From a virus: a stretch of DNA of 36,947 bases. Position 1 is the stretch's first letter; each line of letters opens with the position of its first letter. The translations under genes and the position numbers were made by a program. The notes beneath the pieces were generated by a model, which was not told the DNA's origin, ran no database searches, and saw only the letters and a list, made by a program, of their open reading frames with translations. Below, piece after piece: positions 7,275 to 31,200 of the stretch. Where the stretch lies: positions 1 to 36,947 of IMG/VR virus record IMGVR_UViG_3300017719_000054; one strand, 5' to 3'.

Positions 7275-10200
7275 TACAATTACGTTAACGTTTAAAGTCG
7301 CGGAAGATGGCAGTCTTAAGGCTATCTCTAAAGATGCGGAAAAAGCGGCAAGTAGTACTAATAAAGCCGCAGGTGCAGCAGGTAACTTTAATAAGCAACA
7401 AAAAGGAGTTGCGGGAGCGACTTCTAATAGTACCAAAGCATTCTCTAAAATGAATCAATCAATGGGCGGGAGCAATGGACTTGTAGCCGCCTATGCGGGT
7501 TTAGCCGCAAACATTTTTGCTCTTACTGCCGGCTTTGGAGCCCTCTCCAGAGCCGCTAGAGCTACCCAACTAGAACAAGGCTTGCTTGCAATGGGCGAGG
7601 CTTCTGGTTTGGCAATGCACACCCTATCTAGAGGTCTAGTAGAAGCTACTGGACACGCAATCAGTTTAGAAGAATCCATGAGATCAGTAGCACTAATTAC
7701 TAGTGCGGGAATTGATCCTGGAAGTATTGAACGTTTTGGTCAAGTTGCTAGAAAAGCAGCTACGGCTCTCGGTAGAGATGTACAAGATTCTATAAGTCGT
7801 TTAACACGTGGTGTAACTAAGCTAGAGCCTGAGCTTCTCGATGAATTAGGTATTATGGTTCGTCTAGATGAAGCCAGCAAGACTTATGCCGATAGTATAG
7901 GTAAGACAGTATCCGAACTTACAAACTTTGAAAAACGTCAAGCATTCTTAAACGCTACTCTTACCGAAGGTGAGGCAAAGTTTGGCGCACTTGGAGACAT
8001 TGATGTTAATCCCTTTGACAAACTCTCTGCGGCACTTCAAAATATAGCTAAATCAGGTATAGGTACACTTTCCAGCATGTTGGCACCAATCGTTGGATAT
8101 CTCTCGTCTTCTCCTATGGCTCTCGTAGGGGTACTAGCTCTTTTCGGGTCTACAATATCTGGTGTTGTTCTAGGCAGTTTGCACGAAATGGCAGAAGGTA
8201 CTAAAAAATTAGCAGTCAATCAAAGAGAGCACATGGCAAACCAAATGGATATTGCCGATGGAAACAATCGTGCTAGTAAGACTATGGAGACTTTTACTTC
8301 AAAAGTTAGAGATGGAAGTGTTGCTCAAGCAGATCTTGACTCTGTAATTATAGGACAAACTCAGTCCCAAAAAACAAATATTAGCCTAGAAAAAAGAGGA
8401 ATAATTAGTAAGAAAGAGCTGGCTAATCGATTAAAAATGTCTAGAATACAAACACAACTAGCTACTCAAGCATTGAATGAGCATAATTTAGCTCAGGTAC
8501 AAGACAGTGCTTCAACTGCTCAGCTTGCTTTTGCAAACGGTGATTTGTCTGGAGGATTTAAAGAGTTAAAAACTACGTTCTCTAAAGTAGGAACGACCAT
8601 GAAGACTGCTTTTAAAAACACTACAGGTTTAAGAACAGCTTTTAATGGTTTATCTATATCAGCAAAAGCTCTTGGAACTTCTTTAAAAGCAGTAGGCGCA
8701 GGTTTCATGGCAATGCTTGGGCCGCTAGGTCTTATATTCTCACTAGGCATGCTACTGGTTGATATGTTTAAAGCGATTTTCAATTTTTTCAAGTCGGATG
8801 CAACAAAAGAATTTGAGAAAAAAACAGAAGCACTGGCTTCTGCACAAGAAGAACTATCAAAAAACTTGAAAGAAGTTGATTCTGGTCTTGCCGATACTTC
8901 TCTAAAAATAACAACTCTTGCAGGAGCATACACTGCATTAGACAATACTTTATCGACTTTTATTAATAAATATAATGAACTTGCAAAGGCCACTGAAAAG
9001 GCAGGAAAGAGTCAAAAAGCACAATCTGAAGCACTCGTGAAGTTACTAAAATCTAGCGATACTTTGTCAAAAGGTTTTAAGGAACATGCAGCAGCTACAG
9101 GCGGCGTTGAAAAATCCTATAAAGCCTTTAATATACAGGCTATGGAGTTTTTAACTAAAGAAAAGAATAAAGCGGCAGCAATAAGAAATGTTGCTGAAAC
9201 AACAAAAACAGCTACAGATGCAATCTCTAAGTATATACAAAGTGCTAAAATAGATACTGCGATCGATGATGTCGTTGCGGGTGTGCAAGATATTAATAAA
9301 GCAATTTTTGAAGTAGGGAAGAATGGGCGTCTAGAGATAAAGGCGGTACTACTAGCAGATGAAAATGCAGGAAGACTTATATCAGAAAGCCTAACTGCAG
9401 ATCAAGCCTTAATACTTAATGTATCTGCAGAAAAGAAAGCCTTAGATGAGATACAGAAAGATACTAAAAAACGTAAAGAGAGTATCTTGAATCTTAAAAA
9501 AGAAGCAGACGGAATGGCCTGGTACAGTAAAGGCAGTCAAGCTCATAACGCTCTTCTTGCTCAAATGAAAGAAGAACAAAAACAGATTAATATAAACAAA
9601 AGAGAACAACAAGAAATAGCTAAAACTTTAGCTCCTGTTGTAGAAGAAAGACAAAATATACTTGAATTAGAACAAGCTCGCTTGGCTTTAGCAAAACAAA
9701 CTATTGAATCCGCCAAACTAGATACTAAAATTGCAAAAACTAGAAAAGCCAATACCCTATCTAGTATTAATGAGCAGATTGAAGCAACTAAAGCGTTAAA
9801 CACTGTTCAACTAGAAAATCAAAAAGGTCTAGTAGGTTTCTTAGAATCTGAACAACAAACTTTGTTACAGGCACAGAAAACTAGAGCCTTAACTAAAGAC
9901 GAGACTATGAGACTCTTAGATCTTGAGGTTCAAATTACTAAAGAGAAAAAAGAACAACTTTTATTAGAAATTGAATCAAAAGAAAACTCTTTGAGAGAAA
10001 ATCTTAAAAGAGAAAAGACTCGCTTAGCAATGGTACAAGAAGAGCAGAAAGTAGAGAAACAAATACTAAGCATAAGAAACAAAGCAGCTTCAGTAGGCAG
10101 AGAAGAACTAAAAATAAGAGTAGATTTAGCAAAACTAGAGCAACGAAATAATAATAGAGCAGCTCAGTTAAATGGTAAATTGCTACCTTCTCAAATTGCT

Positions 10201-12582
10201 TCAATCGAGCTAGATAGTAAAGTATTAAAAGATAAAATACTGTTTATGAAAGCAGATGCTTCCAATAAAATTACTGGTATTAAAATGGAGAAAACATTAC
10301 TCCAAGCTAAACTAGCAGTATTACGCGAAGAAATGAATATTATTAATGCTAAGAGAAGCAGTGATAATCAAATAAATACTTCAGATTTAGACTCTTTAAT
10401 CGCCTCATTGGATGGTGGCAATAGCGTATTTGAACAACAAGTTGTAAACGTAAGAAATGAACTTGCATTAGGCTTAGGACTAATGCTTGAACAGGTACAA
10501 ACTACAGATATACAAGCAATGAAAGATGCGGAAAGATTGAGTATCTTAGTAAAACAAAAAGAAGAAAGTTTAGATGTATTAAGTACTATTGAAGCCATGA
10601 CAGGGGAATTGAAAAAACAATCAGAACTGGGCACAGAGCTTGCAAACATTAAAAATACTGGATTAGATGGCAATATTATAAACTTAGATAAAGCGTTCAA
10701 AGTAGCAGAAACAGCTCGTAAAAACTCAGTTGAATTTGCAAAACAAGAGTTCGCTCTACTAAAAACAAGAATAGAGGCTGAAGAGTCTTTGTTAGATGCT
10801 AAGTATGCACTATTGAAAGCTGAAATGAGCAAAGACGGTAATATAGATACTAATGAAGCATCGGTTCTTACTGCTTTATCTGCTGCTAATGCTAAACTTA
10901 AAGATCTTAACTCTGAAAAGATGAAAACTTTAAAAATGGAGTTAGGAGTTATTGAAGCACGTTCTAAATTAGATTCTAAGCAAGCCATTTATGATGCAGG
11001 TAAAGAAGGTGGCGGCGTAGCAGCTATAAAAGCTATTATGGCTCGTAGACAAGGCAAAGCTGAATTACCTGAAGGTAGTCAAGACAAAAATAAGGGAGAA
11101 ATAGTAACAGCTACTCAAGCAGTAGCCGCAGTAGATTCTTCTATGCAAGCTGCTATACAAGCTCTTATCCAGGAACTAACAGTTCCAAAGGCTAATTTAA
11201 GTAATATAGATAGTAATGTTGCAAAAATTGCAGCAGGTGGCCCTGGAGGATCTGGTACTGGAGGCAGTACTAATACTTCTAGTACTTCCACCCCCGGTAC
11301 AGGCCCAGAATTTAAGAAGAAGCCTGGAGAAGCGGGTAGTGTTTACACGCCTACAGATGTGCCAACTACGCCTAAAGCAGGTTTATCTATCTCTGATTCC
11401 GAAATTAAAGCTGGGATAGCAGCAGGAAGCGCTGTAGACATGTCAGTAGATAAGCCTAGCGTAGATATTAGTGTGCCTAAGCCGTCAATCTCAGAAGGTG
11501 CAGGCAACGCTACAGAAGGAACGGAAAGCGCTGCTTCTGGTGCTTCAGAATCTTTAAATAATACAAAAGTTACTATAGATGAAGTTAGAGCAGCAACCGC
11601 AGGTTTTGCAGCAGATATGGCTAAGTTAGGTCCTGAAGGTGAAATTATCGGTCAATTTGTAATGGGTATGGATAGTGTAATGGGAGCCTTCCAAAACTAT
11701 GGTACCGCCCTATCCGAAATAGAGGCTGTTGAAGGTAGTTCTGCCTATAATCATGAAAAAAGAATTGCTATGGCTGATGCAGCTGCGGCAGGTATTGCAG
11801 CAACTCAGCAGATGGTTGCCGCTGCTTCAGCACATAAAGTTCAGGCTATAGATAAAGAAATAGAAGCAGAGAAAAAGAGAGACGGATATTCAGCAGCTAG
11901 TGTAGCAAAAATTAGAGCCTTAGAGAAAAAGAAAGAAGCTACAAAGAGAAAAGCATTTGAAAATCAAAAGAAATTGCAAATGGCCGCCGTAGTAGCAGCT
12001 ACCGCATCTTCTATTATGACAGCTTTAGGAGCACCTCCCTACGGTTTAGGCCCTATCTTCGGTTCACCTATGGCGGCTTTTGCAGCGGTCACCGGTGCTA
12101 TTCAGTTAGCTACTATTGCTAAAACTTCTTATAATGGGGGAGGAGGCTCAGCACCTTCAGCACCTGGTAAGATCTCTGCAGGCCAAAGAACCAATACGGT
12201 AGACTTAGCAAAAGGTAAAAATGCCGCGGGAGAGTTAGCATATACTCGAGGTCAGATGGGTGCTGGAAACATGACTAACTTCCGTACTGCGTTTACAGGT
12301 TACAAACATAGAGCTCAAGGAGGTTACATTGTAGGAGAGCAGGGTCCAGAGTTATTTATGCCAGAGACTCCAGGTACAATAGTACCTGCAGATGAAACAG
12401 AAGATATGGCAGGCGGCGCTCCAGTAAATGTAAACTTCTCAATACAAACAATCGACTCCAGTACTATGCAAGAGACTTTGCAAGGACAGAGAGCAAATAT
12501 TATCAGTATGATTCGAGAGGCTGCACATACAAATGGGGAGCAGTTTTTGGAAGATATTGATCTAAGTGAGGTTGAATACTAA
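7264..12582 (+). CDS. tape measure protein
   Basis: The 1772-residue protein sets tail length and is carried inside the tube. The N-terminus has the Ala/Gly-rich helix typical of tape measures (GLVAAYAGLAANIFALTAG, residues ~75-95). Two hydrophobic segments lie at about 285-306 and 480-505 and could insert in the host membrane during DNA entry. A very long Lys/Glu-rich helical region spans about 520-1220, followed by a Gly/Ser/Thr/Pro-rich linker. A third hydrophobic part lies at about 1571-1626. The C-terminal GGYIVGEQGPELFMPETPGTI (from residue ~1687) is the classic tape measure ending. The start is GTG 7264, overlapping the previous stop by 11 nt with a weak ribosome site. No peptidase or lysozyme domain was recognised. 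At about 0.15 nm per residue the tail would be roughly 260 nm. Confidence 0.92.
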   Translation: MAGDTITLTFKVAEDGSLKAISKDAEKAASSTNKAAGAAGNFNKQQKGVAGATSNSTKAFSKMNQSMGGSNGLVAAYAGLAANIFALTAGFGALSRAARATQLEQGLLAMGEASGLAMHTLSRGLVEATGHAISLEESMRSVALITSAGIDPGSIERFGQVARKAATALGRDVQDSISRLTRGVTKLEPELLDELGIMVRLDEASKTYADSIGKTVSELTNFEKRQAFLNATLTEGEAKFGALGDIDVNPFDKLSAALQNIAKSGIGTLSSMLAPIVGYLSSSPMALVGVLALFGSTISGVVLGSLHEMAEGTKKLAVNQREHMANQMDIADGNNRASKTMETFTSKVRDGSVAQADLDSVIIGQTQSQKTNISLEKRGIISKKELANRLKMSRIQTQLATQALNEHNLAQVQDSASTAQLAFANGDLSGGFKELKTTFSKVGTTMKTAFKNTTGLRTAFNGLSISAKALGTSLKAVGAGFMAMLGPLGLIFSLGMLLVDMFKAIFNFFKSDATKEFEKKTEALASAQEELSKNLKEVDSGLADTSLKITTLAGAYTALDNTLSTFINKYNELAKATEKAGKSQKAQSEALVKLLKSSDTLSKGFKEHAAATGGVEKSYKAFNIQAMEFLTKEKNKAAAIRNVAETTKTATDAISKYIQSAKIDTAIDDVVAGVQDINKAIFEVGKNGRLEIKAVLLADENAGRLISESLTADQALILNVSAEKKALDEIQKDTKKRKESILNLKKEADGMAWYSKGSQAHNALLAQMKEEQKQININKREQQEIAKTLAPVVEERQNILELEQARLALAKQTIESAKLDTKIAKTRKANTLSSINEQIEATKALNTVQLENQKGLVGFLESEQQTLLQAQKTRALTKDETMRLLDLEVQITKEKKEQLLLEIESKENSLRENLKREKTRLAMVQEEQKVEKQILSIRNKAASVGREELKIRVDLAKLEQRNNNRAAQLNGKLLPSQIASIELDSKVLKDKILFMKADASNKITGIKMEKTLLQAKLAVLREEMNIINAKRSSDNQINTSDLDSLIASLDGGNSVFEQQVVNVRNELALGLGLMLEQVQTTDIQAMKDAERLSILVKQKEESLDVLSTIEAMTGELKKQSELGTELANIKNTGLDGNIINLDKAFKVAETARKNSVEFAKQEFALLKTRIEAEESLLDAKYALLKAEMSKDGNIDTNEASVLTALSAANAKLKDLNSEKMKTLKMELGVIEARSKLDSKQAIYDAGKEGGGVAAIKAIMARRQGKAELPEGSQDKNKGEIVTATQAVAAVDSSMQAAIQALIQELTVPKANLSNIDSNVAKIAAGGPGGSGTGGSTNTSSTSTPGTGPEFKKKPGEAGSVYTPTDVPTTPKAGLSISDSEIKAGIAAGSAVDMSVDKPSVDISVPKPSISEGAGNATEGTESAASGASESLNNTKVTIDEVRAATAGFAADMAKLGPEGEIIGQFVMGMDSVMGAFQNYGTALSEIEAVEGSSAYNHEKRIAMADAAAAGIAATQQMVAAASAHKVQAIDKEIEAEKKRDGYSAASVAKIRALEKKKEATKRKAFENQKKLQMAAVVAATASSIMTALGAPPYGLGPIFGSPMAAFAAVTGAIQLATIAKTSYNGGGGSAPSAPGKISAGQRTNTVDLAKGKNAAGELAYTRGQMGAGNMTNFRTAFTGYKHRAQGGYIVGEQGPELFMPETPGTIVPADETEDMAGGAPVNVNFSIQTIDSSTMQETLQGQRANIISMIREAAHTNGEQFLEDIDLSEVEY

Positions 12583-13274
12583 TGGCTGTTAATAAATATT
12601 TACCGACCCCCGATAATGGGTTCTCAGATGCAGGCTCCTATGTAGGAAGCTCTTCAGCCGATTACAATGGACCAGGCTTTGCATCTCTTAAAATTACTTC
12701 TAACCAACCCGTTATGAATAATAGAACAAATGGCGGGCTTCTAGTAAGACGAGTGAAAGCTTACCAAAAGTGGGAACTAGGCATACAATATAACTCTTTA
12801 TCTAAAGAAGAGTTTTTGGCAGTACACTCTTTTATATTAGAAAGACAGCAAACTCTAGAGCCTTTCTTTGTAGAGTTGCCTCAGTTTTCAGGAAACTCTA
12901 AAGATATACAAGAGGACGCCTCAGCAGGCGAAAGGCAGCTACTTATATCTAATGATAGCGGAATCAAAGTTGGAGATATGTTCACCATCAACGATCCTAA
13001 TAAGGTTACTCATAAGAAAGCATACCAAGTTGTTCGAGTAGAAAGAAATGGAGCAACTGGAGATTATACAAATAATACGGCAACTAGCCCTGCCGCGGGT
13101 AGGTGTAGATTAACTTTCTCACCCGCTCTACAAAAAGATGTTGAAAGTACTAATTCATCTGTAAACTTTAATGCAAAGGTTCAAGCAATACCTTCAGCAG
13201 ACACAATACAATACACAATAGATAAAAACGGATTATATAAATTTTCCTTAAAGCTTGAGGAGGCTTGTTACTAA
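12582..13274 (+). CDS. distal tail protein, lambda gpM-like
   Basis: This 230-residue protein sits between the tape measure and the tail-tip giant. The N-terminal part has the minor tail protein M pattern: a strand with VRRVKAYQKWELGIQYNSLS, a helix FLAVHSFILERQ, and PFFVELPQF. In lambda gpM links the tube end to the tip complex. A second part after residue ~105 (ASAGERQLLISNDSGIKVGDMFTI) reads as an inserted beta domain with a KVGD motif. The final strands (NGLYKFSLKLEEACY) close the first domain. The size is about twice lambda gpM (109 residues) because of the insertion. The ATG overlaps the tape measure stop (TAATG). Confidence 0.7.
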   Translation: MAVNKYLPTPDNGFSDAGSYVGSSSADYNGPGFASLKITSNQPVMNNRTNGGLLVRRVKAYQKWELGIQYNSLSKEEFLAVHSFILERQQTLEPFFVELPQFSGNSKDIQEDASAGERQLLISNDSGIKVGDMFTINDPNKVTHKKAYQVVRVERNGATGDYTNNTATSPAAGRCRLTFSPALQKDVESTNSSVNFNAKVQAIPSADTIQYTIDKNGLYKFSLKLEEACY

Positions 13275-13276
13275 AA

Positions 13277-16200
13277 ATGGCATTACGAAATCTAAATTCA
13301 GCACTAAAGGCAGCTCTATTAAAAGATGATGAGTTCATCTTAGCGCACCTAATAAAATTTGAAAAACCTAAACAAGGCTCTAGCACTAGTACTAATGCTG
13401 TTGATTATGTGTACATGACAGATGCGCCGTTCCCTCTAACTTTAGACGATCAAATATATATTCCTAGTAATATTATGAATATAGGTATGGTTAGAGAGAA
13501 TATCGAGGCTAAGGCTAGCACTATGTCTATTAAATTAGCTTCGAGTGCTTTGGGTACTTCTTTTGTAGATGATATTACATTTACGGCTAGCTATATTCAA
13601 ATTCCAGATAACTGGTCTGTTTTGGGCTTTAAGGAAGGAGATGTTATTACATTTACTCCTGGCTCCGGGACGGGACATGGCAATTCGGATTTAGAGTTTA
13701 GAATTGATAGTATATCTGAAAGTGCAGAAGGTAAAGAAGATCGTGCCCAAGGAACAGTTGTATCAGGAACTTTATCTACAGAGACAAAAAACTATAAAGT
13801 TTCTACAGATAATCCACAACTTAATTCATTACTTATAGATAGAACTTCCGATGGTTATGCAACTTATATTCACAGAGAGATAACAGTTTATAGAGCTTAT
13901 CTAGATCCTCAGACTGGTGCTTATATTGGTAACGCAGATAAAGAACTATACGATAATGATGGTGAACCAATAAGTAATCCTTTTATACTATTTAAAGGGA
14001 ATATCGCAAATGCTAATTTAGTAGAGAATGCTACTTCCGGAAGTACCGTCACTTGGTCTATTACAGATCACTGGGGTGACTTTGTAAGAATAAACGGCAG
14101 ACAAACTTCGGATGCTTCTCACAGAGCTTTAGATAGTTCAGGTAGGTCTGTAGTAGAGCATCTACCTAACCCTTTATATGAAGATGACTATGCATTTGAA
14201 CATGCTGAGAAGTCTCTGAATGCTATGGCGACTTATATTCGCCAAGAGCAGAGAACCACTAAAAAGTGGGGTAAGTGGGCAAAGAAAATTACTGGGGGTA
14301 AAAAGACAGTAACATATTGGGCAGATGTACCTGTTCCTGTAGAACTAAACTTTAACCTTGCTGCAAAATTCATACCTGTAGTCTATGGCATGTCTAAAGT
14401 TAAGGGAAATACCTTTTTCATTGATACAGGTAAAGATGATTCCACTACTACAGATATTGATGAGAATACTTATATATACCAGGCTCAAGCGCTTTGTGAG
14501 GGCCCAATTGCAGGTATTTATGATATCCATATTCAAGGGGATACAGTACTATGTACGGATAATGTAGATTATGGTAGAAGACAGCCTGAAGAAGACACAG
14601 AAGCGGGAGACGAACTACCTACTTGCTATGGTAATGCTAAAGCGGGTAAAATACTTAATGGTTATACTACTATTAGTTTCTCAGATGCTGACCGTTATGA
14701 TATTTTAAGTACTCCTGAAGAAGATGCAGAATTAGTCAATAGATCGGCAAAGCTAGATACAAAAGGTTTAGGAAGACATAGATTTTTTGGGGGGGTTGAT
14801 ACGCCTGTAAACGAACCTGATAACCCTACTGTATTAACGTCCTCTGCTTTTAGAGGTGTAGGAGCTAATCAAAGTATACGACTTCTTAAACCAAATGAAA
14901 TTATTTTTGACGTATTTACTGGTACCTCTGATCAACGCGGTTCAGATCGATTAGCGACTATTTCTGCCGAAGGTGGTTTTAAAATTCAAAATGACTTCTA
15001 TAGAGGCGCAGAAGGTAACTATAGTCCGTACTACTGGACAACCTCTCATAGAGCCCTGGATACCGCCTATGTAGTATCTCGAACAACTTTGGCAGCAAAT
15101 GCCTCTTCTTTACCTGAGATAGAGTATGTTGTAAAGGGTAAGTTTATTAACTGTTTCAACTATGACGGTAGTTTATCCCCTTATGAGGGAGAGTCTGAGA
15201 TCTCTACTTGGAAGAGATACGATGCTGTTGATGTGTATGACCTTAATGACAATAAACTCAACAGTGGCGTATACAGAATTGCAGAAATTTTTGATATAGA
15301 TAAAGTAAAAGCCCAGCAAGTAAGATCATCTAGTCAATCAGGTGTTGGCACACAAAAACGTTTCTTAGTTCATGATACGTCTAGACTTCTTGCCGATATA
15401 GGTGAAGAAAAAGAGGTTTACTTTAAGAAATCTGGAGCAACTGAAAAAGTTTATTGTAGCACCTATAGAAACTCTGTAAAAAGAGGGGCAAGTAGTACAA
15501 TTACTTTAACCCCTGTTCCTTCTATGACTACGTCTAACTTCAAAAATACTGCAAGACGTAGATCCGGGAAAAGCTATATTGGCGGAGATAGTGAAAATAG
15601 CTTTACAGTAACCTATTCGGCAAGTAGTTCAAATGCCGCAGTAGGTGATGAAATGGCTTCTAATAGTACTCAGTACTATCCTATTACATTTAAAAAACCA
15701 AATTCTAACAGTAATTTTAATACTACTATTATGTGTAAGTCTGGTACCCGTACCTTATCGGGAGGAACTTATACGCATAAAATAATAGTAGACTACTGGC
15801 CCTCTGCGGAAACCTTTAAGAAAATTAAAAAGCATGGAGGTGCCGCATACTTCACAAACTTTGTATCAGCAGGTAGCCAAAATGTTTCAGAGATTGAAGC
15901 AGAGCAAGTATTAAGCCTAAATATAGCAGACAAGCCTGATAGAGTGATAAGAGTAGAGAAAGTGATAACCACTTCTAGCTCGAATAAAGTTATTCAGCTA
16001 AATGAAAGTGCTAAACGGGTAGAGAATACTTCAACAGTTGCAGCATATGAAGATGATATTCTTAACGATTTAAGAGTTTCTTTAAACCCTTCAATTCAAT
16101 TACTAGACTTTTTGACAAGTAAAAGATATGGTAAAGGTCTAGATTTAGATACAGATATTGATTTAGATTCTTTCTTACAAGCTGCTAGAGACTGTGACGA

Positions 16201-19200
16201 AAGATCGGAAATTTCTATAGTTGTAACAGGTACCCGCACTCCTTCTAGTATTGGTATAGGTTCTCTATGGAAAAGAGAATACTCTAATAATGTAACATTT
16301 ACGGGTAAGGTTAAAAGATTAACACCTATACAGTTTGAAGGATCTAGTTATACTCAAATTGACTTTGAAGACTGTACAGGTAAATTTGTAAGAAGATGGA
16401 AGCCTTATGCCTCTTATGTTGTAGGCGATTTAGTATATGATGGTCACGCTATTTACAGAGTTAACTCGGCATTTGCTGTAGGAGGTTCTTTTGATGATAC
16501 TGACAGTGATTCTCACGATGACCTACAAAGCAACTCTACAGAAATTTGGCATGAAGCTGAAGATGAAAGCGGAAATCTTACATCAGCCTCTTTATCAAAA
16601 ATAACTGGATCTGGTTCTTTAAGTATTTTATATCCTTATGTAGAAGATGATTCCACACATAAAGCACAAGGCCCAATCGCTAATCCAGTTATAAGATCTT
16701 GGAATGGTACAGATTTTAGTGCTCCAGGATATTCTCTATATGATTGTGATGATATTGACTACTGGGCACTACAAGGTTGGAATGACGCAAATCAATATAA
16801 TGTAACACGTCACCAGTGTTCAATGAATATTGATACATCTGAATCTCTGTTTGAAACTGTTAACTTAATGCTTAAGCAGTTTAATGGTCTGTTAACTTAT
16901 ACTAACGGCAAATATTCTTTGTCTGTTAAAAAAGCAGTTCCGGATACTCTAGATACTATAGTTGTTGATAATGATACTTATACACCTGCTCAGATTCATA
17001 AAGATGATATTATTGGAGAATTAAAGATAGAAGGTAAGGCAGTAAAAGATACCTTTAATACTGTAACTACAAGAGTATCTGATCCCGCCCAGAAGTTTAA
17101 CAATACAGATATTACTTTCTTCGACTCCAATTACATAGAGCAAGATAGGGGTATACCGAAAAGTGCAAATATTGCGTACCCTGGTATTATAAATTACTAT
17201 AATGCAAGAATTAATATCAAACAAGAATTGGATAGATCAAGAGCAGGTCTTACTGTATCCTTTACCACCAAGCCTTCTGCTATTTTGTTAAAAGCAGGTG
17301 ATTTTATACAACTAACACACCCTGAATTCGGCTTGACAAATAAAACTTTTAGAATTACCTCATTGAGTCTAAAATCAGACGGTCTTGTAACGATAGCAGC
17401 CCAAGAACACGATTCTTCTACTTATATATTAAAAGGGCTAGACAGAGGTACTGAACTCATAGCTACAAATGATAGTAGTGGAAGATTACCTGCTCGTGTA
17501 GGAGCTCCACCCGTTTTAGCCACAACAACTAACAACGAGGGCCAAACAGTATTAGATCTACCTAATATTGTTACTTCTTTGCCTCAGCAAATGATAATTA
17601 AGTGGTCCCATGCTGATACATATGACCCTTCTACCTATGCGGTAGAGGTGTGGAGACATTCATCTGAAACAAATAACGTTCTTGCAAATGCAACCAAACT
17701 GGGCGCATCTCATGGTACAGAATTTTTGGACAGTCATGGACAAGAAGACGACGGATTTAATTTCTACTACTACTTGCGTTATATAGTAACAGGTACAAAA
17801 GTAAATGCTTCAGAACCTTCAAGAATGTACTCAGACTTTACACAAGTTATTGAAGCAGACATGACTCCTTTGAATGCGGAGAACGTAAAATATACAGGTA
17901 CAGGAACTCCTACTATTCAGAGTCTAATGCCTAATGAAGCAGGTGCAGATAATACTACTAGTCAGGTCAATGATGGAGTTACTATTGATGGTGCTGGTGG
18001 TGGTTTTGTGCTTGACGAAAACGGACATATTAAATCCAATGGCAGAATCTCAGAGCAAGTAAATAGTGCAGGAGAATCAGGCTTCTTCTTAGGCTATAAT
18101 GCAGATGCTATGGAAGACGAAAATGGAGTTGCTCAAGGAGCTTATACTTTCGGTGTAGGCGACCAGACAAATAATTTAATTTGGGATGGTGAAGAATTAA
18201 GTGTAACAGGAAACATTGATGCTACAAGTATGACTCTTGACAGTAGTATTGAAATTGGGCGCACTAATTTAGATAGTACAGTAACAACGCAGTTAGATCT
18301 AGCAGTAAGTGCTTCACAATCTACAACAGGTTTAGCTCTTTTATTAAATCAGAATGCAGCAGGTTCAGCAAATGCGGGAGAAGCTTCCTTAGTTGCTGTT
18401 GATGGCGATGGTAATGCAAGAAATGATGTAGATGGATTTATTGAATGGAACGGAGACAGAGTTACTGTTCCTCATGATAGCTATCAAAATACTACTATCT
18501 TAACAGATGTTGCGGGCAAAAAAGGCTTTATCGCTTTTGATGTAAATAAGTCAAAACCTTTTGATCTTGGAAGTACTTACGGAAAAACAAGCGTTGCCTT
18601 TGTATATAAACAAGGAGATCAGTGGTACTATGATAATAATGGAAATACAGTAGCAGGTGTTGTAGAGTGGGCTCCTGGAACTTTGATGGGTACAGAAGCT
18701 GGTACTACAAGTACTCCGGCACGTATATTAGCAATCGGATACTTACAAACAAAAACCGCTTCTGCAGATAGTATCCTTAAAGGAGGACTATTTGCAACCC
18801 CTGTAGATATTGATCTAGCCTCTATGCCTTCTGATGAAATTAATTCAGGTACTATTGCAGGGATTAAAATTACTCATAATTCTATCGAATCTAGTAACTT
18901 TAGTACGGGCACACAAGGAAATGGATTTAAAATTCAATCAGATGGTAGTATGGAAGCAAGCTCTGGTACTTTCCGAGGAAATCTAGATGCTAGCACTTTG
19001 ACACTTGATGAGAGTATTACTATTGGAGCATCCAACTTACCATCTGCTATTGTATCTGGAGCAGCGGCAGGCGCAACAGCTCTCGAGCAAGCCAAAGAAA
19101 TGCAAAGTAATACAGATAACTTAATTGTTACTCCTGTTTTTACAGAATTCAATGAATCTCAAGGAGATTGGACAAGCACTACCACGAGTGTTGTAGAACT

Positions 19201-22200
19201 CTCTGAAGAAAGTAATAGTGTAAATTTCCCTAATGGGTATGAATATGCTCTAAAACTAACAGATACTTCGGTAGCTAGAGCTTTCGAAGTGGGTAATATT
19301 ATTCCGGTTCTTCCGGGAGAAACAATGTATTTCAGTGTCTGGGTAAATACAGAATTTGCAAACCAAGATGTTAGCATTGGGTATCATAAGTATACCTCTG
19401 GTTCTGCAACTGGCATATATGTTAAAGCAGCAACCTTAGCACACGGCACAGCAGGATGGAAACATTTAACAGGTACTGTAGATCTACCGAACGATTCAAT
19501 AACAGCTATAAATCCTTTTGCAGAAATTGATTGGGAATCCGGAGACAATGGAACTTCGGGTGCAGCTTATTTTAACGGATTCCGTGTAAGTAGAAGCCCT
19601 CAAGGTAATATTGGTGGAATTACAATTAATTCAAATAAGCTTTATCAAGGTGCGGGCACTTTTAATGATTCGGGTACTGGATTCTATTTAGATAATGGAG
19701 GAAACTTTAGTCTTCAAGATAAACTTAACTTTGACGCAGATGGCGGAGACGCCGAAGGAGAGGGTAAGCTTACTGTCAAAGGTGATATTGAAGCAGATAG
19801 TTTAACACTTGCTAGCGGTATCTCTATCGGTACAGGTAACTTATCTAGCGGAGTTGTAGACAGTCTTACAAAAGCTGATAATATCCCAGCTAATCAATTT
19901 GCCGCACAAAGAACTTGGGGATTTGATACAGGAGCACAGGGTTGGTCTCCTGCAAGTAATTTAGCAGTCCAATCTCAAAGCGGAGGATACTTACTTTTAA
20001 CCCCTAGTTCAAGTGATCCACAGTTTCAATCACCTGATAACCTAAATCTTGAAGGTGAGCTAAACACAGTAGTGATGGCTAGAATCAAAAGAACCGGAGG
20101 CACTGGTTGGGACGGGAAACTATTCTACTCTACTGATAGCGTAGGTAATTATACAGGTCACAGTTTCAGCGGTGATTATAGAAAAGATATTAGTGATCCT
20201 ACAAACGGTAGCACTGGAACTTGGGTTGTTGCTCAGTGGGATATGGAAGACCTAACTCACGGAGATGATGACTGGACTGATAATATTATTAAAAGAATAC
20301 GATTAGACTTTGGTCTTACAGTAGCAGATACTTTTTTAATTGATTGGGTTGCCGTTGGTAATATAGGGTCTGCGTCTTTAAGAGATGGTGCAGATCTTCA
20401 ATCCGGTACTGTAGGCGGTATAACAATTGAGGCTCAAAAACTTTATCAAGGAGAAGGTAATCATAATGATGACGATACTGGGTTTTACTTAGACAACTCA
20501 GGCAATTTTAGTATACAAGATAAACTTTCTTTTGACGGTACAGATCTAACTGTAAGTGGTGATATTACTGCTGAAAATCTTAGCATAAGTGAAAACGCTA
20601 CAGTAACAGGCACACTCTCCGCTGACAATCTCTCAGTAGGAAACCTATCTCTAATTAGTGCAGATCTGGGTACTATTACAGGTGGTTCTTTAACAATCGG
20701 AGAGAATAATGAATTTGCAGTAACAAGCGCAGGAGCTCTAACAGCTACAGGAGCAACTATCTCTGGTGCTATCACAGCAACTAGCGGTACCTTTACAGGT
20801 ACTGTAAATGCTAGTAGCGGTACCTTTACAGGTAATGTTAATGCTGAATCTATAACAATCTCCCAACCTACAACGTCAACTGTACCCTCTGGCATGAATG
20901 TTCCAGATGGTGAAACAACTGTTGTACTTACTAAAAACCAAGATTCAAATGGAAGTACGAATGTTGGCGAAATAAGAATGCAGTCAGGATACTTTAGACT
21001 AGCAAGAGATTTAAAGAGAACAGTTGCTTCAGATATTCGTATATTAAGTTCTTACGAGAATAGTACTACTCCTCCTGGAAATACGTTTTATGTAATCTCT
21101 GGTGAAGGACAAGCTTGGGGCAATAATACGGATGGCGATGCGACTAATAACGGAAGATTCCATGGCGGAAGTGATAATGCTACTATAAATAATTCTGCAA
21201 ACATACAGGGTTTCTTTATAGCAAAATATGAAAATTCAAATTGGAAAGCAGTAAATAATAATAATGCTTCTATTACTTTTACCCCCGCTTCTACGGATTA
21301 TTGTATAGCGGTTGGTACTAAATCAACTACGGACACCGGTACTGGGATTGATACTCTTGTACAAACACAACGTAACGGCACGTTCGTTCTTCCTGATAAC
21401 ACTACTGATGATATAAATGCTGGTATAACCATCGAATCTGGCGGTATTACAATGAGCTCTGGTGGCTTTATTAAAGGCGGACAAAGTGGTTTCGATACAG
21501 GCTCAGACGGATTCTTCTTAGGTTATGACACGGATGCGTATAAGTTTAGTATTGGTGATGTTGATGGCGATAAGCTAACTTGGGACGGCTCAGATCTAGC
21601 TATAACCGGTGATATTACGGCAAACTCTCTAGGTTTAGTAGAAGGCCTTACGATCGGTCAAACAAACCTATCTTCAGAGCCCACAAAACTGGGTATAGTA
21701 AAAAGACTTAACTCAGACCCTTTCTTTGCTCATGCGGGAGGCACGGATTACTGGTTTAACGACTCTGATCTTCACGACGGTGGTCAAAATAGTGTAGGTG
21801 TAGACAGCGATGCTGATACTACATATAAAACAGATGGCTCAAATCTTCCTACAGGAAAGTCGACTTATCTTCAAGTTGTGGACAATGATGATGACTCTGA
21901 CAATTTTGTAAATAGCCAATACTTTACAATAGATAGTACAAAAACTTATAAAATAACTGTCTGGGCAAGACAGACTGCAGGAAACAGAAAAAGTTATTTA
22001 CTTGTAGATTTCCGAGATAGTAGTAACCAAAAAATTAATAATAGCTCTAACCCTACTGCGACAAATGATGGGTCTACAGGCTGGCTAAATATTGGAACCT
22101 ACCATTACTATGGAGTAAACGGTAGTGTATTTGGAAGCGACTGGACAAAGTATGAGGTAGAGTTTGGAAATAATGTTTCTTCGGTAACTTCTCCAGATGG

Positions 22201-25200
22201 CGCAGTCAAGTTCTCTGTGGGAGGGTTGTTGACACGAGACGCTGGAGCCGGCGTTACAGGTGAAGAAACAACTGTAGAAATTTGTCAATATATTGTTGAA
22301 GAGTTCGACAATAATGATACTACTAATGCGGCAATCACAGAACTTGCCGGTGTAACACTTACTGATAAAAAACTCTTTCTAGGGGCTGGCACACATAATA
22401 ATTCAAATACAGGATTCTACTTAGATAATGACGGTAAATTTAGCCTAACAGATAAGCTATCTTTTGATGGAACAAATCTTTCTGTTAGTGGTGCTATAAC
22501 TGCGACAAGCGGTACCTTTACCGGTGCAGTAAATGCTTCTTCAGGTACATTTACAGGAAATGTATCTACTACTGCGAAATTTACTGCAGGAAATGTAGGT
22601 TTAGATGGTACTTCTGGAGATACTAATACAATTCGTATCTATGCAGGCAACTCTACTCCTTCTGATGCTTTATTTAAAGTAACAGACGGAGGTGCGGTAA
22701 CTGCGACAAGCGGTACTATTGGTAGCTTGACATTAGCTTCTGATAAAGTAACTATCGGTTCAAGCACTACTCATGGAAATGCAGATGCTAAGTTCTATGC
22801 AGATAATAGTGGTAACTTTGGACTAGGTAATAAACTTACTTTTGACGGATCTGCTCTATCTATAAATGGTGCTGTAACTGCTACAAGCGGTTCATTTGGT
22901 GGAATCACAATCGCAGACAGTAAGATATATACTGGAGATGGAGATTTCGCAAATAGCAACACAGGATTTTATCTAGACAACACTGGTGACTTTAGCTTAT
23001 CAGATAAGTTTAAGTTTGATATTAGTGCAAGTACACTGACTGTAGACGGCACTATTGAAGCAGATGGGTTTTCTACTATAGAAGGTAAGCCTGTTCCAGA
23101 AATTACGGTTGGAACAAAACTTCAATCTCAAGCTACACTCTCTCCTCGTGTCGTAATCTTTGGAGGAGATCCAGTATTCTATGCAGCGCTTGAAGATAAT
23201 ACACGAGTCTATCTAAACGGTATATTAGTAGATACAGTTAATAAAGGTGCTTCAAGCACTATTGCGGCGGCGGATCTTGATAATGGCGATATTATTCATA
23301 GTACAAAACCTGTGTCGTTACGTCAAAATGGTGCACCACTTCCAACTTTTGCAGCTACTGGACAGTTCTTTGCAACAGGTAACAGACCTGATTATACATA
23401 TTTACATTTTGGTATATATTCACCTTATGCAGATGGTCAAATTAAGTACTTTAATTTTGATTCTATAGAGCCAGAAGATGCAAACAACGATAGTTTAATT
23501 GACTGGTCAGACAATAATGCTTACGATGCTTCATCAAACCCGAATGGCTGGAAGACCAAAGCTCTTATTCAAGGATCGGTAGCGGAACTTACTATTGAGA
23601 GATCTTCTAACACTGTAAACGGATTTCAATGGTTCCAAGCAGATACTCCTGTATTAATATCTTCGGCAGCATCAACAAGTAATACCTGGTTTGGTGGAGA
23701 TCTTAGAGACGTGAAACTTCTCAAAGAAGTATCACGAGAAGTTTTATCTTATGATGAAGGTAATCAAATTAAGTATAGCCCTTCAAACACAGGTACAATA
23801 GTAAATGATAATACAGGCTCCTCTGATTGGAGATATTCTAAATCCACTGGTGATTTGCTGTTTGCACACACTGATCAAGGTGACGGAGACGGTAGTGACG
23901 GTGTTCAGGGTATTCCTTGGAAAATGTGTGGAGATACCTATGTAATCGATCATGGTCTAAGAAGCTATCAAATTGCAACTATTGAGCCTTCAGTTATTAG
24001 TGCTTATTATTGGACAGGCAGTACATGGACTCTCTATAAAACTCATGATTTCACCACTGCGAGCAGATCATCTTTTGCTTCACATAGTGAGGGAGACAGC
24101 GATGCTCATGGTGTTGATAGTTCAAACTTTATTGGGCAAGCAGATGCTGATAAACCTTGGAGATTTATAGGAACAGGAAGATTTGCACTTCGAGTAAACA
24201 CTCCTCATGATGGAACCGATGGAAACGATGATGATGAGTATTTCGTACTTGGCTATGACTCAAACTTGCGATCACAGGAAACAATTCGTGTAGGTCAGCT
24301 TATTGCTGCAGATATTTCTGCTGATGCGATTACTGGTGAGAAGATTCTAAGTACCACAAATATCAAAGTTGGCCCTTCTGGCAGTGAACAAGTAGGTCTA
24401 GACGGTAGCGGAAGTGGTGATAGTGCAGTAAGAATTTATGCTGGTGATACAACTCCTGGCTCTGCTCCGTTTAGAGTAACTAACGATGGTTCATTAACAG
24501 CTACAGATGCAACTATTTCTGGTGCGATTACTGCAACCTCATTAACTATTGGAGGGTCTGCTACTGTAAGCGGTACTATTCCAAATGCAAATGTAGATGG
24601 TCTATCAGATATAGCAACTAGTGGTTCCGCTAGTGATCTAACCGGCACTATAGATAGCGGTAATCTACCTGCGGGTGCTCTCAACTCAAATGTTACAACA
24701 ACCAGTCTAGGACTAGGTACTGCAGCTACTAGTGACAGCGATGACTTTGCTAGCGCTACTCAGGGTGATACAGCTGATTCTGCTTTACAACCTGACGGTA
24801 ATTTAACAGGTAGTATTAACGACTTGCCTGTTGGAGATTCTTATAAAGAAACTACAAAAGGTCTTCAACTGCCTACAGCTAATCAAGTATTACCAGGTGC
24901 TCACGATGATGAATGGACTTTGGGAGTGGTCTCCGGAAACCGAGGTATTTGGGGAAATAATGGAGGAGCGAATGAAAATGAAATTGTATTTGAACAAGGC
25001 CCTCATGGAGTAAAGACAAGAGTTTGGAAATCCATTAATGAGGATATTAATGAGCCTTCTCAGACTCCGGCGGACGATGGCGATGACGGTGATGGTGGTT
25101 TCTATAATACAACTTCTTTTACAATAGGTTCGGATGATGATGCTGTTTTCAGATTCTCTCTTTTTATACGTCAAGAAGATGCTGATGGTTCAATGTACGT

Positions 25201-28200
25201 TGGTGGTTGGAACTGGGATGCTTCAGGCAATAATATAGCGCTTCCTAAATATGATGGTAGTGAGCCTACTGATACTAATCAGTATTTTTTCGCTGGAGAT
25301 TTGCCAACTCAAGGAGAGTGGTATCTTGCAGTAGGCTACTTCCAGATGAATAACGATGATGACAAGAATTCTGGTCTTAGCGGTTTGTATCAAGTTTCTA
25401 CAGGCTTTAAGAAGCAGTCTTGGGACGACTTAATGTTTAACTCTAATGCTACAAAATTCAGCGTTAGAACTTATCAATATTATGCAAACGATACAGACGA
25501 CGGTACTGTTGCTCGATGGGCACATCCTCGTGTCGAAAAAATGAGAACAAATACTCCTAGCATTGAACAATTAATTGCTGGAAATACGGTTGTTCACACT
25601 ACAAGCGCAGAAAAAGCCTTGAAAACAATAACTTCAGCAGACGGAAGTACAAACATAACCCTGACTCCTAATGCTGATATAGACGATACTACGGACCATG
25701 ATCCCGGAGAAATAAAAGTTTCCGCAGGTGTTTATAAATTTGGCGACAATGATGTTAGAGAGGTGGCTACAGAAGCTACTTTGGCAACCCCCTTCGAGGG
25801 TGGAACATATCCTGAATTTCCTGGAAATAATTTTTACATAATTAGTGGAAATACCGGTACCGTTACATACAGAGTAGTAGTGGGTGGGAACCCTATAGGA
25901 CGATTCCAAACTATTAGCGGCTCAAATATTGGAGCAGGTCTATTTGTAGCAATTTTTGATCCTGCAAACGAACAGTGGTACGCTGTAAATAATTCTAACG
26001 AGAGGGAAGCATTTACTCCTTTGTCCACTGACCACGTTGTTGCAATAGGGCACAAGACCAGCATTGATTCAGGGTCTGGTTTTCAAACTTTAAGAAGTCT
26101 GATACCTTTTGTAAACGATCCAGATTCTGATCAAACAGAGCCTACTCTTACTGCAGGTGTCTCTATTACAGGAGGGGGTGTTACTATTAATGGCGGTGGT
26201 TCTGTTAAAGGCGGCCAAACTGCTTATAATAACGGAACAGGTTTCTTCTTGGGCTATGATACGGATAATTACAAGTTTAGCATCGGTAACTCTACAGCAA
26301 ATGAAAACTCTTTAACATGGGACGGTAGTGATCTAACTATAAGAGGTGACATTACTGCGGACAGTTTAACTCTGGCTAACAGTATTACTATTGGTACGGG
26401 TAATCTACCTGACTCAGCTCTTAACGAGAATGTTACAGCGTCTAGTCTTAATATATCTAATACGGATGTAAGTGGTTTAGGTAGTGCGGCTACTAGTAAC
26501 ACAGGCGACTTTGCTACAGGTGCTGAAGGTGATCTGGCAACTAGTGCTTCTCAAGTAAATGCTGGTCTAGCCTTTATTCCAAACAAGTCACTTACTAATA
26601 ATCCAGCTAGCGATACCAGTACTTTAATCAATGCACCTGGTGAAGCTCTTATATGTGGAGTAGATAAAAATGGTAATCCTGCCCCAGGTACTGATGGGTT
26701 TATTCAATGGGAAGGAAATAAAATTACCGTTGAAAGAATACAATACACTGATGTCTCTACAAATGGCTTGAGCCTGCTTACTCACCAAGCAAATAGAAAA
26801 GGTTTTATAATTTTTGATACTGCAAAAGGTAATGACTTTTCTGTTAATGGTGTAGCAATGGATATTGCATTTGCGTGGAAAATTGGTACTCAGTGGTATT
26901 ACGATAAAAATAATGCAGCTTCAGTGCACACCTTTACTCCCACAGATGACTATGTTGCACTCGGGTACATGGAAACATCTACTAGCGATCTAATTTTAAA
27001 AGGCGGTCTATTTGGACACCCAATACCGTTAGAGCAAGCAGCCTTCCCTGGAGATGTTGTTCAGTCTGGTACTATCGGCGGTATTAAGATTGATAATGAA
27101 AAAATATATGCAGGTACTGGTACTTTCAATAATGCAAACACCGGGTTTTATTTAAAGAACGACGGAGACTTTAGTCTAAAGAATAAATTAAAATTTGACG
27201 CCAGTGAATCTCAACTAACAATTGATGGAGATGTTAGCATTGCTGGAGGTCTTAAAGCCTCTGAGATAACTCCTCATACATTAGAGGTTGTAAACCCTCC
27301 AACCTTAGCGGGTAATATTAATAGATGGGGAGGTATAAACGAGTTTGGTACTGATGCTCTTGCCGATGATCTTCCTACAGGTTGTACGAATAGATCTTAT
27401 TCGGATACGGAAAACGCTCTGCGTATGTCTAGTACAGGGAACACGGCTACTTACTGCGATTCTTGGGAAATTGACCATAATGCGATTTATAGGATAGAGT
27501 TAAAGCTGAAGAAAAATATTGCAGATGGCGCAATATATGTAGGAACTCGCTCAAGCACCACCTCTTTCGCGGGTAGTACGGTATCTCACAATGCTGATAG
27601 CGCGTCATCTGAGGTCATGCTTCGTTGGGGTCCTAGTAGGGCTGCGGAAAGTAGCACTTACAATCAATATTTTTGGAGTGCTTCAGATGGCGGCGTACCT
27701 ACTAGCTATAAGAAAATGGTATTTTATGCGTTTGGTAGTAATGTAGATATAGATTCTGTTCCTGATCACTATAATGAAATTAATTATTCTCATGGTGTAC
27801 CTTATGCTCAGTTCCCTTCAACATCGCTCTATGGCGCTGTTAGATTTTTGAACTATTTTAATAGCGGCACAGAGTCTCATGCATATTTTAAAGATGTTAC
27901 TGTAGAGAAAATAACTCCTTTAGACATACAGGCGGATAATATAAGAACAACGACTTTGTCTGCAATTAGCTCTGATCTTGGAAGTATTACAGGGGGTTCT
28001 TTAGCAATCGGAAATAATAACGAGTTTCAAGTAACAAGTGCAGGTGTTTTAACAGCTACAGGTGCAACTATTAGTGGGGCGGTCTCTGCAACTAGCGGTA
28101 GTATTGCGGATAGTGTTAATATTGGTGTTCGTGACGAGGACAGATTTGCTTCAAAAATCGGTTGGAACTTTGAAAGCGGTAAACAAGGATGGACATCCGA

Positions 28201-31200
28201 CGGAGATTCTAACTTTACTCATAATACTGGCGGATATATAGTAATTGATGCTACAGATACTGATCCAGTTTTGTTTTCTCCAGACGGCTTGAACCTAGAT
28301 GGTAATCTTAATACAAAAGTTCTTGTAAGTCTGCGTCGTACTGCAGGAACTGGCTGGCATGGTGCACTTTATTACCAAACTAATGGTGGTCATAGCCACG
28401 AGGAATCTAACAAACACTTAATTAGTGACCCTACAGGCGGAACTACAAGCAGTGATTGGATGGTAGTCGAATGGGATATGTCAAATCAGAGCAGTGGCTC
28501 TACTTGGACAGGCTCTAATACAGTTAATCAAATAAGATTAGATTTAGGTAACACTGCAGCGGATACTTTTGAAGTAAATTGGGTAGCAATTGGTGAGAGA
28601 GGTGCAAATGCTCTGCAAGAAGGTGCTAATCTTCAATCAGGTACTGTAGGCGGCATTAAGATTGATAGTGAAAAACTTTATGCAGGTGCTGGTAATTTCT
28701 TCACTAGCGATACTGGCTTCTATCTAAAGAACGATGGAGACTTTAGTCTAAGTAACAAACTAAAATTTGACGAGAGTGCTGATACACTAACAGTTAACGG
28801 TAATATTACTGCTCAGTCTTTGAGTTTAGCTTCCGGCATTACTATTGGTACTGCTAACCTTCCTGATGACGTTCTTAATGACAATGTAGGCCCTGGAGGA
28901 ACTCATAACAAAGATCCTTACTTTGAGAAAAGTAGTTGGTTTGATAATCCAAGTACTACGGCTCTGGGTAGTGTATACTCTACCAACACCATTGTCACAA
29001 ATGCTACAGGTTTGCCAACAGGACGCAGTACTCACTTTAGATCTACGGATAATGATGATAACAATGAACAATTCTTCAGTGAGCTGATGCCGATAACGGA
29101 AGGTAAGCTATATAAAATTACTGTTTGGGCAAAACAGTCTGGAGATAGAAACAATTACCTTCTCGTTGATTTCCGGAATGCAGCGGGTCAAAGAATTAAT
29201 AACGGAGATATTCCGACAGGACAAGGTACAAGCGCTGCTACCACGCCTATACACAATAGTATCGGATGGGACGGTGGAGTTGGAAACTATAGTTATTGGA
29301 AAGTAGCAAATGCTGACTTTGCTTCAGACTGGAAAAAGTATGAAATAATAATGGGAGGAGATGACACCTATACATTCTCTAGCGGAACTGACTCAAATGG
29401 AAGAGATAGAAATCCTGTAGAGTTTAGAGTAGGTGCTCTTGTAACTCGTGCTGGTAGCAATAGCTCAGTTGTAGATATTGCAGAGTACACTGTCACAGAA
29501 ATAGATGCAGATGACTATTTTGCAGTGAATACAAGTACTATAAACCATAACCCAGATTTTAAGCTTAGAAATATATATGGCAGACCTGAAGGAATTAAAG
29601 CCCTATATGGTAACCAATATCAGTCAAACATTAAGTACGAAGATGAGTATAACAGTAATAACGTTGTCTTAAAACATAGCTCAGATAGTTCAATAGGCAT
29701 GGGTTGGCCTGCTATGAGATTAGATACAGGTGTTAGTTATACAATTACTGTAAGAGCGAAGGTAACAGGGTCTTCTAATAAAAGCACTGGTTTTTATATA
29801 AGAATGCAAGAGTACGATGGTGATTTGTCAACAGATAAAACTCATATTTCAGCATTCTCTGGTATTTCTCAAGTTGATGGTGTACAAAGTCCTACTAGGC
29901 AATTATATACCTTAAGAGAGAATGCATCTATCACTACTAGTTTTGTAGATTATACTTATGAATATACTCCAACTACTACTGCTAAATGGGGTTCTTTAGT
30001 TTTACTTAATTGGACAGGAATGGGAACAGAGGGGTTAGTAGTTGAATATGCTAGAGTTACTCCTAATTCTTTGGATAAAGTACGAGGCAGCGTAGGTGGA
30101 ATCAGTGTTACTACTGATAGTATTTATGCAGGTGCCGGTAACTTTGCAAACTCAAATACAGGATTCTATGCTGATAGTTCTGGTAACTTTAGCTTATCAG
30201 ACCAACTATCTTTCGACGGAGATGATTTAGTTATACAAGGTAATGCCCTTGTATCTGGAAGTGTTGCAGGCTCTGCGCTAAGATCAAATACCACTATAGA
30301 GGCTTATCAGGTTGATGAGAATAATCTAATAATAGATGACACGTATGCTGCACTTGATGGAGAGGATGATACGTTCAGAATATATGCAGGTAGTTCTATA
30401 CCAGATTCTGCACCTTTCTCTGTGCAAAAAAATGGTAGTGTAGTTGCTAGAGACTTAAAACTTTACACAGAAGCTGGAGAACTTTACTTTGACTCTCAAC
30501 AAGGGTTTGGTGTTTCTGCACTTTCACAGGTGGCGGCATATCTTGGCGAAAAAGTACATCAATTTTCTAAACCTTTTATTACTGGTACTGGGCACGGCAA
30601 TACTCCTGCTCATACAGGCGGTTATGCGGATACTAGTGACTATAGAGAGTGGGAGAAAGTTACAATAACAGAAAATACTGATGTTACTGTAACTTGTAAA
30701 ATTGATACAGGTTCTTGGTATGGTTATGCCTCACATACTCAGTACGAAAATCTTATAGGTTATAGAGGTTCAGGATACATTTACCATATGATAGGTGGAT
30801 GGACTCAAGGAACCAATGGTTCAGGGGGCAGCCATGGAACTAATAACCTAGAGACAGGAAGTTGGCCTACAACCAATAAAACACTATCTACTTCAAACTT
30901 TAAGGTAGACAGTTATGGATTAGCTGGGACTAGTTCTAACTTTCCTACAACTACTCATAGAAAAAGTAGCCCGAATTCTTCACAAACTAGTTTTTATGAT
31001 AATGAGCTTATAAAACTTGAGTTTGCAGATCTACCTCCCGGTACAACTACAATTACGGGAGTTACTGGAGCTAAACTTGCATCTGGTACAAATGCTGAAA
31101 CTGTAGAAGTTTTTACTAGTAGTAATAACATTATTACACCTCATGGGGTGAATAGAACAGGCACAGTTTATATGCGTATTCAGCATAGTGGTTCTACAAA

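Follow-up and report, generated by a model that had tools for sequence, protein, structure and literature searches.

A repeated linker as a probable site of module exchange in a giant fused hub-fibre gene of an uncultured siphophage

The giant hub-fibre gene

We analysed IMG/VR virus record IMGVR_UViG_3300017719_000054 over its full length of 36,947 bases (the window). It is a linear record and a fragment. In it, a giant gene on the plus strand (13265..32365) encodes the tail (baseplate) hub of a T5-type siphophage fused to its central fibre. The gene is a single open frame of 6,366 codons, and the one chain of 6,366 aa carries 13 decoration modules or regions set among copies of a repeated linker. 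Phages with the same linker have exchanged modules at its edges, and the modules of this gene probably arrived mainly in that way.

The hub region (aa 1-1500; 13265..17764) is of the T5 pb3/lambda J type. It matched PF13550 Phage-tail_3 above the Pfam cut-off (E=6e-9) and phrog_31, 'central tail fiber J' (PHROG; E=1e-35). It was 27-32% identical to the hub/J proteins of T5-like phages by tblastn. The frame starts with TTG at 13265, where it overlaps the upstream gene, but translation could also begin from the in-frame ATG at 13277. The C-terminal part (30293..32362) ends in a Peptidase_S74 intramolecular chaperone domain (PF13884, E=4e-7, 30.7 bits against a gathering cut-off of 22) and also matched phrog_5668, tail fiber protein (E=6e-20). 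Misassembly was rejected as the source of the array, because one 19.1-kb frame spans hub to chaperone and the copies are far too diverged for assembly repeats.

The nearest relatives of the hub, L100 and L101, were 32-37% identical over most of its length. Their fibres are wholly unlike the window fibre and consist of unrelated repeats, but a terminal segment resembles a D-type linker (GGFFLG...VGD). A single-sequence viral scan with the C-terminal part of the hub found no relative. A tblastn search of aa 1646-3579 against phages matched roseophage R4C alone, with 10% covered.

Modules of the fibre

A first-pass annotation, made from the sequence alone, had described four domain families (A, B, C and D) that each occur twice in this gene. 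Self-comparison of the gene bore this out. The A pair was 43% identical (E ~5e-43), the B pair 40% (~5e-29), the C pair 40-41% (~4e-26), and the D pair 35% (~5e-21). The module coordinates confirm the order C1-A1-D1-B1 followed by D2-C2-A2-B2, and the positions first given were right within about 60 bases. All modules are on the plus strand.

Four other loci (L044, L051, L090, and L010; three-digit handles denote loci outside the window) carry C modules that were 51-54% identical to module C1 (18275..18847). C2 (26513..27067) was 53-58% identical to those in L029, L092, L093, and L044. Modules A1 (19868..20404) and A2 (28130..28639) are carbohydrate-binding-type domains by prediction. D1 (20900..21439) was 36-37% identical to the D modules of L010; D2 (25628..26167) was 40% identical to the same modules and 42% to one in L098. 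B1 (21662..22342) and B2 (28853..29554) complete the paired families.

The other modules had been described as single-copy. This holds for S1 (19058..19603), for which no relative was found, and for S2 (23111..24364; 418 aa), which had no relative in any search. It does not hold for S3 (24872..25594) and S4 (27287..27916, or 27281-27919 as first noticed), which are distant relatives and make a fifth pair (hhalign, 97%). S4 was 35-40% identical to modules in L009, L015, L075, and L088. S5 (29555..30085) lies directly next to B2, with no linker, and has relatives in L084/L085/L087. Profile comparison also showed C and D to be distant relatives (84%), and B and S5 perhaps so (57%); the similarity of S5 to B is weak.

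Linkers of the fibre

The linker profile found 12 copies of about 60-90 aa (unit ~65 aa), with individual E values of 6e-4 to 7e-34, plus truncated copies. They span about aa 1577-5676 and are all on the plus strand. The consensus is GxxGGITIxxxKxYxGxGxFxNSxTGFYLDNDGDFSLxDKLxFDGSxLTVxGDITA. Linker L1 (17993..18259; E=5e-9) is of the D type. Linker L2 (18848..19057; E=6e-4) is divergent and begins directly after C1. It is followed by L3 (19604..19834; E=2e-31) and L4 (20405..20608; E=7e-34). A partial linker of a second type runs from L4 to ~20899. It contains an in-frame tandem repeat of 33 bases (20782-20845; 1.9 copies, 93% match), which is the gene's only clear mark of recent local duplication. 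L5 (21440..21661; E=3e-22) is of the D type. L6, L7, and L8 (22343-22540, 22712-22888, and 22889-23110; E=1e-29, 2e-16, and 2e-29) lie between B1 and S2. L9 (26168..26398; E=3e-25) is again of the D type, and L10 (27068..27280; E=2e-32), L11 (28640..28852; E=1e-33), and L12 (30086..30292; E=1e-28) complete the set.

At their 3' edge, all eight paired copies but B2 have a full linker that begins 0-1 aa past the module. On the 5' side, D1 and A2 have no more than a partial linker and D2 has none. The claim that all copies are bounded by the same linkers thus stands for the 3' edges other than that of B2, and on the 5' side it fails for some copies.

The linkers of the window were on average 40% alike. 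Those after A1 and A2 were 60% alike, and those after D1 and D2 (L5 and L9) 68%. L5 was also 61-70% identical to the linkers after D in L010. Searching the linker profile against the sequences of solved structures gave nothing credible. One linker had a weak bactofilin-like (beta-helical) match in Pfam, below the cut-off, which agrees with the beta-prism rod proposed below.

Relationships of the paired modules

The pairs are not recent duplications, since C1 and C2 are nearer to the C modules of other phages than to each other and the synonymous sites of the pairs are saturated. At identical residues, the fraction of shared codons was close to that expected from codon usage (observed/expected: A, 0.42/0.41; B, 0.47/0.45; C, 0.54/0.45; D, 0.45/0.43). 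Recent tandem duplication was ruled out by this saturation. C1 and C2 fall in separate branches of the C family, and each is closer to C modules elsewhere (up to 54% and 58%, respectively) than the mutual 40-41%. They grouped as sisters in 0 of 200 bootstrap trees, and the approximately unbiased (AU) test gave p = 0.04 for that grouping. The word duplication is not supported where it means recent in-gene copying.

Exact DNA repeats are scarce in the gene. There are five of at least 15 bases in 19.1 kb, the longest of 20 bases, which is slightly above synonymous shuffles. The longest that involves a linker is 19 bases, so there is little present-day homology for intragenic recombination. The permuted module order was considered as significant evidence and rejected, because 10 of the 24 orders of four have a common subsequence of at least three and agree equally well.

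Linkers and modules in other phages

With four window linkers as queries, the linker was found in 80 other IMG/VR loci, at 1 to 10 copies per fibre gene with partial ones counted. Several module families recur in these fibres with different neighbours and orders. C has nine further copies in eight other loci. A occurs in L095 and L096. L010 has two D modules, and weaker matches to D lie in L098 and L099. S4 (in the four loci named above) and S5 (in L084/L085 and L087) recur as well. For example, L010 has the order D-D-x-C (x being another module), and L021 has two C modules. A single-sequence viral scan with C1 found no relative. Fibres that otherwise differ from the window fibre share fragments of at least 50% aa identity with it, the maximum being 54% for C1 and 58% for C2.

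In the window, as in most other phages, C stops exactly at the start of the next linker, and the register of this joint is the same for nearly every copy. The linkers after D are alike across phages (54-70%; permutation p = 0.0005), and those after C slightly so (p = 0.04). Those after A are no more alike than others, so a fixed unit of module plus linker is not general.

Relatives of module A occur, without a significant linker match, in the J/tail proteins of four cultured phages (L103-L106): Brenneria phage BREN6, Pseudoalteromonas phage H101, and Klebsiella phages KpLi5 and Border_ER3. The J gene of KpLi5 lies at 15513-26891 of its record and encodes about 3,800 aa. In L030/L033, the fibre gene contains several tandem DNA repeats at about 8678-9691, with a spacing of ~189 bases and 74-76% identity.

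Homology breakpoints at linkers

Breakpoints were scored among non-redundant relatives from DNA matches of at least 400 bases, with contig ends excluded. A breakpoint was counted as at a linker when it was inside one or within 25 bases. Homology ended at linkers in 60 of 212 cases, against 33.3 +/- 5.8 with rotated linker positions; 0 of 1000 rotations reached 60, although the contigs are related and the counts are not independent, so this is not an exact probability. Starts of homology peaked from 4 bases before the linker start to about 20 bases after it.

Single pairs of relatives give the clearest cases. L051 and L054 are 86% identical over 239 bases and 89% identical over 1,349 bases of DNA on the two flanks of unrelated modules. 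Between these flanks one locus has a C module and its partner an unrelated domain; neither blastp nor profile comparison found significant similarity between the two. The second joint is 8 bases into a linker, and the swap is flanked by exact matches of 20-41 bases. The module type in L054 was found again in L015 and L050. L029 and L092 share a C module that is 86.5% identical in DNA over 519 bases. The match ends 14 bases into a linker, and the adjoining stretches are unmatched. Homology of L010 with L014 (76% identity) sets in 2 bases ahead of a linker. L009 and L011 match at 76-78% identity, apart from one module that lies between two linkers.

Recent exchange (at least 70% identity with unrelated flanks) was thus seen in the relatives L029/L092 and L051/L054 and not in the window itself. 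Exact matches of the window linkers, among themselves or to other phages, do not exceed 19 bases. The first-pass annotation had proposed a cassette system with linkers as recombination joints. As a whole, this proposal is partly supported. Between phages, the breakpoint counts and the clean swaps support it; within this gene it is unproven.

Fold and predicted glycan binding of the modules

Module A has a homologue in roseophage R4C, namely the carbohydrate-binding domain in the phage's Megatron protein. The A family profile matched residues 488-627 of PDB 8gtc_M with E=2e-25. In the available text of PMC10276861, residues 482-629 of Megatron are assigned to a carbohydrate-binding domain from a CBM11-like topology, and sugar binding is there inferred and not measured. 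The AlphaFold2 (AF2) model of A2 had low confidence (pLDDT 58); its best structural match was a carbohydrate-binding module (CBM), 8qx6 (Z=10.1, 2.9 A over 124 residues). Profile and model together support A as a carbohydrate-binding-type domain with a predicted contact to glycans.

The model of C2 was good (pLDDT 77, pTM 0.77), but no fold matched it clearly. Its best matches, at Z of only ~5, were a baseplate protein from a phage and a tail fibre from a cyanophage, and Foldseek with the C model found no match below E 0.1 in the PDB and viral libraries. Single modules against Pfam gave nothing credible, and neither did the C, B, S4, and D profiles against the sequences of solved structures.

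Gene neighbourhood

The tail block of the window contains a capsid/protease region, a major tail protein, a tape measure, a pb9-type distal tail protein, and the giant frame. The distal tail protein gene (12582-13274) adjoins the hub gene upstream and matched the PF21425 DTP-pb9 A domain (32.8 bits against a cut-off of 27). Beyond the giant gene, the opposite strand encodes ribonucleotide reductase genes, a 5'-3' exonuclease, and a PDDEXK nuclease. No cultured phage matched the window in Megablast. Neither the linker nor C had a confirmed match in scans of 84,980 genomes of bacteria and archaea, so that no prophage or host link was obtained.

Discussion

The most probable account is that this gene encodes a fused hub-fibre whose decoration modules come from a pool common to phages that use the same linker, and that new modules arrive mainly by recombination between phages at linker edges. 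The linkers of ~65 aa probably form short segments of a rod, each a trimeric beta-prism like that of the T5 fibre. Globular decoration modules would sit between the linkers, protrude from the rod, and contact glycans of the host, and would probably give the virion several different contacts with sugars of the host surface. This gene would have accumulated two members of several families from the shared pool, and its paired families are better read as repeated drawing from that pool than as duplication. New modules would arrive mainly by recombination with the fibre genes of other phages. The joints would lie at linker edges, positions at which a join breaks neither the reading frame nor the rod. 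Exchange would most likely take place between co-infecting phages, anchored in linkers and in shared rod sequence. Such exchange is directly visible in the relatives, and we infer that it also built this particular gene.

Several observations weigh against this account. No close relative of the window was found in the searches, so module change in this gene itself was not directly seen. The breakpoint counts come from related contigs, as noted. The linkers are the more conserved parts of the fibres, which would bias the ends of homology toward them somewhat; the 86-89% identical flanks of the swap pairs are hard to explain by this bias. D-type linkers travel with D, and the joints of C are at the 5' edge of the linker, so what moves is not one fixed unit. 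D1 and D2 show the tendency seen for C, but not significantly, and as sisters they were not rejected (AU p = 0.29). A1 and A2 as sister copies are neither shown nor excluded. A viral scan with the B pair found no relative outside this gene. The model of A, as given above, is of low confidence.

An origin within the gene was the first-pass annotation's own reading. A block of four modules would have been duplicated long ago, D would then have moved, the copies would have diverged, and the linkers would have served as in-gene joints. The four paired families fit this history, and their two orders differ by one move of D. The linkers after A1/A2 and after D1/D2 are more alike than the window average, and the A and B pairs are compatible with in-gene copies. 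Against it stand the separate branches of C1 and C2, each nearer to other phages, and the saturation of synonymous sites. The agreement in order is expected by chance, and the same families occur in other combinations in other fibres. We regard this history as unlikely. It is also very improbable that the fibres descended vertically with fast modules and slow linkers, so that the apparent swaps are modules diverged past recognition. The linkers are conserved, and a difference in rate would also put the ends of homology at linker edges. For pairs such as L051/L054 this is refuted, as modules with no significant blastp or profile similarity lie between flanks that are 86-89% identical. The module type of L054 recurs in two further loci, and L029 and L092 share a C at 86.5% DNA identity next to unmatched neighbouring stretches.

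Hardly any weight falls on active switching, in which intragenic recombination between linkers would reshuffle the fibre within a phage population, like phase variation. Twelve similar linkers in one gene speak for it. So does a slight excess of shared codons in linkers L10 and L11 (30 of 43, where 44% would be expected; p = 0.0006, uncorrected for 66 pairs). However, the longest linker repeat is 19 bases, and exact repeats of at least 15 bases are few. In this fragment, whose small open reading frames were not all scanned, neither a recombinase nor a reverse transcriptase was recognised that would mark a diversity-generating or inversion system.

Phage receptor-binding proteins are well known to shuffle their domains, and adhesins are a hotspot (Smug et al. 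2023, PMC10684548). Fibres with variable modules set apart by conserved motifs are also on record (PMC7230728, citing Trojet 2011). The first-pass statement that no named system has this exact design was therefore too strong, since these sources cover related designs. Among the mosaic receptor-binding proteins of PMC10684548, fibre proteins that are otherwise unrelated have fragments in common, some of them recently exchanged and highly identical. The recent fibre example there is a swap of the C-terminal domain on a common N-terminus, whereas in the present case a single family of repeated linkers separates many internal modules and the joints are at linker edges. In T5, the pb4 fibre is a trimeric beta-prism that bears inserted small globular domains on linkers (PMC10038345). 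Like T5, the window has a pb9-like distal tail gene directly upstream and a J/pb3-like hub. Unlike T5, its hub and fibre are one chain with an S74 chaperone end, and there is no separate pb4 protein. With hub and fibre in one frame, it would work like a T5 tip but is not classed as one.

The Megatron domain of R4C (PDB 8gtc) is likewise part of a tail-tip protein; it is one copy inserted in the peripheral domain of that protein, with no linker array (PMC10276861). In the gp38 adhesins of the T4 superfamily (Trojet 2011, via PMC12529663 and PMC7230728), conserved motifs also alternate with variable host-binding segments. As described there, these are short glycine-rich motifs and hypervariable segments. 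The giant gene had no gp38 match in Pfam or PHROG, and no sequence relation was found. The 'evolved' Dit/Tal proteins (PMC7291167) show that CBMs decorate siphophage tail-tip proteins; they have one or two CBMs, not a serial array in a central fibre. The present case is a clear variant of these systems. Shuffling itself is known; the difference is that the site of exchange is an internal linker, of which a single fused chain of hub and fibre has as many as 12 copies.

More tentatively, the linker could be a standard joint across a large group of uncultured phages. Modules in register could then be inserted from a common library, giving fibres of a dozen or more modules and attachment that is multivalent or suited to multiple hosts.

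The host range of phages rests on adhesins, and their exchange is usually described as a swap of the terminal binding domain. In many uncultured phages, the points at which whole modules come into and go out of a very long fibre are marked by an internal linker that recurs along it. This makes domain shuffling testable, because junctions can be predicted, the pool of modules can be counted, and the sugar specificity of each family can be measured. It also gives a rule for finding candidate glycan-binding families, such as C, D, B, S4, and S5, in metagenomic phages.

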